The notes under the pieces: model-generated
What the model saw: the letters and a program-made list of their open reading frames with translations, nothing else
Told to the model about the DNA's origin: nothing
Databases searched by the model: none
Shown here: positions 3,836-21,955 of the stretch, piece after piece
How positions within the stretch are numbered: position 1 is the first letter of the stretch
Layout: the number at the start of each line of letters is the position of its first letter
Program-made: the position numbers and the translations under genes
Assembly: GCA_024275975.1 (NCBI GenBank)
Contig: JAJRYC010000096.1
Span: 1 to 41,809, forward strand
DNA from: Nitrospirota bacterium
GTDB taxonomy: Bacteria > Nitrospirota > Thermodesulfovibrionia > Thermodesulfovibrionales > UBA6898
DNA: 41,809 bases
Direction of reading: 5' to 3'

Positions 3836-4075
3836 TCAGCTTACCACTATTACCATCTCTACCCACGGAACAGCTTCCTTCACTCTCTCCTGTATGACCT
3901 GAACCAGGTCAATCCTTGTGAAGTGTCAGCTATAACAATATCCGGTCGGTTTTATCCTGACAGTCCTGTCCTGAATGTCTACAAAAAGGATATCACCGGC
4001 TAAAGATGTGTACCTTGGTTTGATTTCTTCGATAATCTGCTTGATTTTTTCTATGTCTTTATCTATATTTTCCAT
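3836..4075 (-). CDS. NifU C-terminal-domain selenoprotein (CxxU, in-frame UGA)
   Basis: This small 79-residue protein matches the NifU C-terminal (Nfu) fold: a helix MENIDKDIEKIKQIIEEIKP, strand-rich GDILFVDIQDRTVRIKPTG, the metal motif, then a long helix and a final strand VEMVIVVS. The Nfu motif CxxC, which binds an Fe-S cluster or acts as a thiol pair, here reads C47-Y-S-U50, with TGA at 3926-3928 in place of the second cysteine. Reading through restores the missing helix LVQVIQERVKEAVPWVE and a natural TGA stop at 3836. A perfect 7-bp hairpin with a GTT loop starts 14 bases past the UGA, where bacterial SECIS elements sit. Stopped at the UGA, the protein would lack half the domain. The start could also be ATG at 4096. 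It is divergent from the nitroreductase remnant. Confidence 0.85.
3895..3911 (-). promoter_or_regulatory. Candidate bacterial SECIS hairpin for the NifU-like gene
   Basis: In the mRNA sense the 17 bases read TGACCTG-GTT-CAGGTCA, a perfect 7-bp stem with a three-base loop. The apical GGU begins about 20 bases after the UGA codon. In E. coli fdhF a stem with a GGU loop occupies nearly the same position, and the UGA is likewise followed by CAC. The hairpin is inside the coding frame, as bacterial SECIS elements are. Confidence 0.75.
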
Positions 4076-21280: not shown

Positions 21281-21955
21281 ATGAAACGGGTTGCTTTTAT
21301 ATTATTCCTGCTGCTTGTCCCGGTTGTCGCCCATGCACAGCCTTCGATAAGTTTTGAGACTATGGAATACGATTTCGGCCTGATGAGCCAGGATAACAAG
21401 GCTGAACATATATTCGAATTCTCGAACAAGGGCGACCGGCAATTAGTTATCGATAAATTGACGGCATCGTGAGGGTGTGCTGCCGTGATGGTCAGTTCGG
21501 ACCACCTGAAACCTGGAGAAAAAGGAAAAATCAGTATTACAGTAAATCTCGCCGGTAAACGGGGGAACGTAACAAAGAGGATCAGGGTACATTCAAATGA
21601 CCCGCTGAAACCCATCACGATACTTACCGTAAAAATGCTCGTAAAAAACAGGCTGCACCTGAATAAATACAATGCGGACGAGATATTCAGCAAAAAATGC
21701 AGGACCTGTCATGTTGAAAGGGGAAAAGGGAAGTCAGGCTTTGAATTATTCAGGGCCGACTGCGGCATGTGCCATAACGGGCGCGGAACGGCGCCGTCCA
21801 TAATGGAAATGCGAAAAAAACCCGCAAAATTTATAACGAAAGCAATAAGAGAAGGGGTCGACAACACAGTCATGCCTGGATTTTCGGTCAAAAACAACGG
21901 TCCGCTGAACGATCCGCAGATTGAATCGCTGATCAGGTTGATCAAACCCCGGTAA
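21281..21955 (+). CDS. DUF1573 - di-heme cytochrome c selenoprotein (in-frame UGA)
   Basis: A 224-residue exported protein. A signal peptide (LFLLLVPVVAHA) is followed by a DUF1573 Ig-like domain (SFETMEYDFGLMSQ through RVHSNDPLKPITILTVKMLV). A C-terminal cytochrome region has CRTCH (140-144), CGMCH (161-165) and a likely axial methionine in TVMPGF. DUF1573 normally carries SCGC after the second strand; here TGA at 21470-21472 gives S-U64-G-C66. The frame continues without a break and the next domain half (LKPGEKGKISITV) follows. Without readthrough the signal peptide and the heme domain would be on separate proteins, and cytochrome c matures only after export. A hairpin sits 16 bases past the UGA. 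A Sec-Gly-Cys pair suggests thiol or peroxide redox chemistry coupled to heme. Divergent from uvrA. Confidence 0.85.
21489..21504 (+). promoter_or_regulatory. Candidate SECIS hairpin for the DUF1573-cytochrome gene
   Basis: TGGTC and GACCA form a 5-bp stem around loop AGTTCG, beginning 16 bases after the UGA. The loop includes GU, which SelB commonly needs, but the stem is shorter than the one in the NifU-like gene. Confidence 0.5.

Follow-up and report, generated by a model that had tools for sequence, protein, structure and literature searches.

Can a TGA codon in an otherwise open frame be read as selenocysteine (Sec), so that an exported DUF1573 domain and a di-heme cytochrome c are made as one protein, and what would such a protein do? 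The question is raised by a gene on a contig of 41,809 nucleotides from a Nitrospirota bacterium (GCA_024275975.1, JAJRYC010000096.1), the whole of which is referred to here as the window and which belongs to a 2.5-Mb assembly that is 97% complete. An initial annotation of this DNA had described a frame continuous from a signal peptide to two CxxCH motifs except for one TGA, and this frame was recovered as described (Table 1). Standard ORF calling splits the gene and leaves the heme half as a 156-aa ORF with a GTG start (21485-21955), which, as the same annotation had remarked, has no signal peptide. Here we present the features of the gene and its relatives, together with a proposal for the role of the encoded protein.

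Table 1. Features of the DUF1573/cytochrome c gene in the window
Feature	Position	Strand	Remarks
Whole gene, predicted exported DUF1573/di-heme cytochrome c selenoprotein, 224 aa	21281..21955	+	Stop TAA 21953-21955; translation with TGA as U
Signal peptide, residues 1-19, likely cleavage A-H-A / Q	21281..21337	+	KR, hydrophobic core and AHA-Q, judged by eye
DUF1573 domain (PapD/ASH-like beta sandwich)	21347..21619	+	PF07610, 79.4 bits on DNA, 85.2 bits on protein
TGA read as selenocysteine, U64, in S-U-G-C	21470..21472	+	Sole TGA within the otherwise open frame
C66, partner Cys of U-G-C	21476..21478	+	Invariant across 51 aligned fusions
SECIS-type hairpin	21487..21506	+	Loop of 6 nt, AGUUCG, closed by a stem of 7 base-pair positions, of which one is an A-C mismatch in the window
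Heme 1 attachment motif CRTCH, residues 140-144	21698..21712	+	Cys, Cys and His invariant
Heme 2 attachment motif CGMCH, residues 161-165	21761..21775	+	Cys, Cys and His invariant; Pfam Cytochrome_CBB3
M198 of MPG	21872..21874	+	Invariant; putative axial ligand of heme 2

The translated protein exceeds the Pfam cut-offs for both DUF1573 (PF07610, 85.2 versus 26.1 bits) and Cytochrome_CBB3 (PF13442, 39.6 versus 27 bits). Two CxxCH motifs, the PF13442 match, the signal peptide recognized by eye and a helical C-terminal domain in the structural model characterize it as a predicted c-type cytochrome. The hydrophobic N-terminus is preserved in all relatives, and residue 64 (U or C), C66, both CxxCH motifs and M198 are invariant among Sec- and Cys-forms in the 51 aligned fusions. 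By reference to class I cytochromes c, heme 2 probably has M198 as its axial ligand. A promoter scan near the gene start delivered nothing better than chance.

An AlphaFold2 model based on 51 aligned sequences (mean pLDDT 92, pTM 0.68) combines a beta sandwich with a helical cytochrome domain, the U-G-C motif being located at the turn that joins strands 55-62 and 67-71. The closest solved match of the sandwich is 2qsv, a DUF1573 protein; PapD/ASH-like domains also match. A search of PDB sequences with the window protein gave no significant match.

Predicted selenocysteine at codon 64

A search of 396 genomes of the phylum, together with a search of the window's family, delivered 34 full-length TGA-bearing DUF1573-cytochrome fusions in 31 Nitrospirota genomes, all with a single TGA per frame. 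These Sec-forms span the families designated f1, f2, f9, f11, f16 and f17. The window's family contributes 22 matches in 16 of its 27 genomes, each with exactly one TGA. The codon sits in S-U-G-C in all sequences inspected (the 29 fusions of the tree set), and because it is common to every Sec-form relative a chance TGA is excluded. SCGC is found in the fusions of families f22, f23 and f28 and in a small number of others, so that the proposed alignment check, whether Cys occupies the Sec site in relatives, came out positive; the Sec/Cys tree of the fusions requires three changes. An in-frame UGA conserved in homologues and replaced by Cys in others is the pattern of a bacterial selenoprotein, and both sides of the TGA are conserved (dN 0.25-0.62, dS saturated).

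Many genes that encode DUF1573 without a cytochrome domain also have a single TGA, in those inspected at the same site. One of them (L085, G018:C112) reads S-U-G-G, with Sec retained and the partner Cys gone. Adjacent pairs of DUF1573 matches with one TGA apiece occur at G357:C267, G180:C23, G381:C46 and G400:C41 and may represent proteins with tandem domains and at least two Sec residues. Three other candidates (L055, L056 and L060), whose matches extend to residue 186, were rejected as fusions and represent tandem DUF1573 domains without hemes.

The hairpin starts 14 nt past the end of the TGA; the initial annotation had given 16 bases, so that the hairpin stands, with a spacing close to the one given there. 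Folded as a single sequence the window copy is unremarkable (z = -0.66), and the argument therefore rests on covariation between sequences. In 41 sequences, 93.4% of the pair cells are standard pairs, versus 80.3% in shuffles and 15-43% in slid controls, and 45 both-sided changes cover six of the seven pairs. The observed covariation was reached by none of 500 shuffles, and RNAalifold recovers the same helix unaided. The inner pairs flip jointly between C-G/U-A and U-A/C-G, and the encoded residues change with them from Ala-Ser-Ser-Ser to Val-Ser-Ser-Asp (the state of the window copy), which provides a clean case of an RNA hairpin dictating coupled amino-acid changes. Of the six possible Ser codons, the loop has AGT in every one of 29 fusions. 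Synonymous codons of the Sec-forms are under their strongest constraint at this very site: at codons 69-74, 77% are identical, versus 42% gene-wide and 49% for the Cys-forms at these codons. The location right after the UGA, the both-sided changes and the conserved loop AGTT mark the hairpin as of the SECIS type.

The window genome encodes selA, selB, selD and a tRNA-Sec with the anticodon UCA. Among the genomes with fusions, selA is present in 30 of 31 with the Sec-form versus 6 of 16 with the Cys-form (Fisher p = 1.5e-5, relatedness uncorrected), the only Sec-form genome without it being an incomplete assembly (G313). This comparison shows that lineages without selA substitute Cys for Sec.

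With the TGA shared, the hairpin covarying and the machinery present, the placement of Sec in the CGC motif of DUF1573, as first annotated, is borne out, and the gene is almost certainly a selenoprotein gene on the strength of sequence comparison. Neither of the observations named in advance as speaking against it, relatives that end at the TGA and have a separate signal-bearing cytochrome gene, or missing Sec machinery, was encountered. That the TGA is a plain stop, a sequencing error or the mark of a decayed gene, with the heme half as a separate ORF, would agree with the split made by the standard ORF caller, but is refuted by the same TGA in 31 genomes and the covarying hairpin; the conservation on both sides and the Sec machinery point the same way, and this explanation can be practically dismissed. 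Decoding of the UGA as Cys by a tRNA-Sec-like selC* tRNA is likewise highly improbable. Such tRNAs are known from Nitrospirae (PMC7609411), and in the window genome a second tRNA that resembles tRNA-Sec shows cysteine features; however, this tRNA has the anticodon GCA, it is the tRNA-Sec (L086) that carries UCA, and SelA and SelD are present. The second tRNA itself (G000:C91:10675-10768; L087:1501-1594, minus strand) scores 57 bits to RF01852 and is likely a selC* tRNA-Cys.

The initial annotation had also counted a second Sec candidate within 42 kb and expected a genome rich in selenoproteins. The second candidate, a NifU-like gene in the window, stands, and elsewhere in the genome selD and a DsbA-like gene also bear a TGA. 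The NifU-like short domain (PF01106, 51.5 bits; 3839-4075, minus strand) has its TGA at 3926-3928 in C-Y-S-U. One TGA each is found in this gene in 10 other genomes of the family, as CxxU in those inspected, and a GACCTGGTYCAGGTC-type hairpin follows the TGA in several genomes. NifU is unmentioned in a 2026 selenoproteome review, and the NifU-like gene may therefore represent an unlisted selenoprotein family. The selD gene (G000:C68:27926-28849, L192) has one in-frame TGA and hence probably encodes a selenoprotein itself.

Gene neighbourhood and DsbA-like proteins

The window gene is isolated, being flanked on the opposite strand by an upstream 844-aa ORF that aligns with genes for excinuclease subunit A (UvrA) and a downstream 557-aa ORF that resembles a signalling gene; no DsbA partner adjoins it. 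The Sec-form loci examined share no conserved functional neighbour, and a DsbA-like gene is nearby in only one of them. UbiA- and UbiX-like genes beside the f1 Sec-forms and housekeeping genes beside those of f9 were considered as partners and rejected, their conservation looking positional, not functional.

The link to DsbA-like proteins comes mainly from Cys-forms. A DsbA-like gene ends at most about 60 nt from the start of the fusion, or overlaps it, in six of six f28 genomes and in at least three of four f22 genomes, and these neighbours bear CPHC or CSHC. In family f23 a single sequence at a contig end (L132) continues from the fusion into a DsbA-like start, FFDFYCGHC; the DsbA-like tail of a second f23 copy (L130) is broken or degenerate. 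In one Sec-form genome (G001) three consecutive genes on one strand encode a Sec-DsbA with QUPHC, a protein resembling di-heme cytochrome c peroxidase, and the Sec-fusion. The window genome encodes a Sec-DsbA-like domain, QUPYC (G000:C46:282-755, L175), which forms the end of a longer protein resembling a beta-propeller. Most related genomes have Thioredoxin_4 genes that contain a TGA.

DsbB was found in none of 48 genomes checked. VKOR was not found in 39 of them, the window genome included; eight of the nine matches are weak (25-39 bits), and the only strong one is in a genome that has no fusion (G002). Five Sec-form genomes give weak VKOR matches, and neither fusion nor VKOR is present in several genomes of f1 (mostly g10); for these reasons the fusion is not considered an obligatory substitute for DsbB.

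Five genomes have a second DUF1573-cytochrome paralogue, of the Cys type (L138 and L140-L143), with a gene for a periplasmic rhodanese-like protein in its vicinity; the four with L140-L143 carry the Sec-form as well.

Proposed electron relay and alternatives

By comparison, the UGA of codon 64 almost certainly encodes Sec under the direction of the hairpin that follows it, so that one exported chain would hold the signal peptide, the DUF1573 domain and the cytochrome c with its two heme sites. The Sec-Gly-Cys (or Cys-Gly-Cys) at the loop of the sandwich would be a redox pair that alternates between a reduced state and a selenenylsulfide (or disulfide). Its partner would be a DsbA-like protein of the thioredoxin fold: two electrons would pass between the pair and the CxxC (or UxxC) of this protein, and would be split, one per heme, with the hemes connecting to the periplasmic cytochrome pool. 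A relay between the Sec-Cys pair and two hemes had been suggested initially and is, as we infer, still the most plausible reading; a periplasmic relay that joins the (seleno)thiol pair and the hemes to a thioredoxin-fold partner has in our judgement an about even chance of being correct. The peroxide, sulfur or arsenic chemistry that had been offered alongside finds a peroxidase-like neighbour at one locus and rhodanese genes near a Cys paralogue, and is less well supported than the link to DsbA-like thiol oxidoreductases, which the initial annotation did not contain.

The likeliest direction of the relay would be thiol oxidation, i.e. re-oxidation of DsbA, because the partner has a DsbA-type CPHC and DsbB and VKOR are mostly missing; we favor this direction tentatively, at somewhat below even confidence. 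More speculative, and doubtful as a whole, is a third bacterial route of disulfide formation, in which a soluble, Sec-using DUF1573-cytochrome c would re-oxidize DsbA-like proteins and let hemes take up the electrons; its setting would be anaerobic Nitrospirota without DsbB and mostly without VKOR, the DsbA-fused Cys-forms being the selenium-free version.

Sec commonly accelerates disulfide and peroxide reduction, which would suit a flow in reverse, from cytochromes to the Sec-Cys pair and on to the reduction of periplasmic disulfides, like a cytochrome-fed DsbD/CcdA pathway. The DsbA-like neighbours are compatible with either direction, and the window organism is probably an anaerobe, low-potential hemes being common in anaerobes; yet the adjoining DsbA proteins bear the oxidising CPHC, and the genomes retain DsbA-like proteins in spite of lacking DsbB, so that reverse flow is considered unlikely. 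Action of the Sec-Cys site on a small molecule such as peroxide, selenite, polysulfide or an arsenic species, in which the hemes would supply or take up the electrons, is rather improbable. It would account for the cytochrome c peroxidase-like gene between Sec-DsbA and Sec-fusion in G001 and for the rhodanese-like genes by the f9/f2 Cys paralogues, and it has a parallel in the Geobacter selenoprotein cytochrome ExtKL, which is tied to selenite reduction (PMC5877670). Against it, no such neighbour is conserved over the Sec-form loci. Moreover, we know of no catalytic pocket in DUF1573, and the fold matches PapD/ASH-like binding folds. This resemblance to binding rather than catalytic folds, and the affinity of CxC motifs for soft metals, would fit instead a site for handling metal or heme (delivery of copper, mercury or heme) with the cytochrome domain as its electron carrier; no gene for metal transport or assembly is conserved nearby, however, the adjacency to DsbA favors a redox role, and the probability of this explanation is low.

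Comparison with known systems

The widespread domain DUF1573 has no assigned function, and lists of selenoproteins include its Sec form without a role. The two-heme fusion and the DsbA-like neighbours of the (seleno)thiol-heme relay proposed here suggest a concrete, testable one, thiol-cytochrome electron transfer in the periplasm, and touch on disulfide formation in anaerobes without DsbB or VKOR. Sec-DUF1573 with the motif UGC is already catalogued as a predicted selenoprotein family in two reviews (PMC9312934, PMC13188914), and the Sec site is therefore not new. The family concerned, OS_HP2 (NF041425; PF07610), has the same domain with Sec at the first position of the CGC motif and is the best NCBIfam match of the window protein, which at 72.2 bits versus a cut-off of 100 is related to it only. 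The NCBIfam model describes a 98-aa domain, whereas the domain in the window is joined to a di-heme cytochrome c, and both reviews give no cytochrome domain, partner or function for OS_HP2. In the searchable literature on DUF1573, which covers few subscription papers, no heme fusion or thiol partner is described, and within that scope the DUF1573/di-heme cytochrome c fusion appears to be undescribed.

The multiheme cytochrome ExtKL of Geobacter is likewise an exported c-type cytochrome with a predicted Sec, but has five hemes, belongs to another family (NF040886) and has no DUF1573 reported in the accessible text. The Bacteroidales DUF1573 proteins, such as 2qsv from Porphyromonas gingivalis, share the fold; the relatives inspected have the motif SCGC, i.e. 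Cys instead of Sec, and no heme domain. DsbB and VKOR transfer the electrons of DsbA into the respiratory chain, as is proposed for the window protein, which by analogy of role may work like a DsbA oxidase. It matches neither PF02600 nor PF07884 and is unrelated to DsbB and VKOR in sequence; these are membrane proteins that use quinone, whereas the window protein is predicted to be soluble or lipid-free and exported, and would use hemes.
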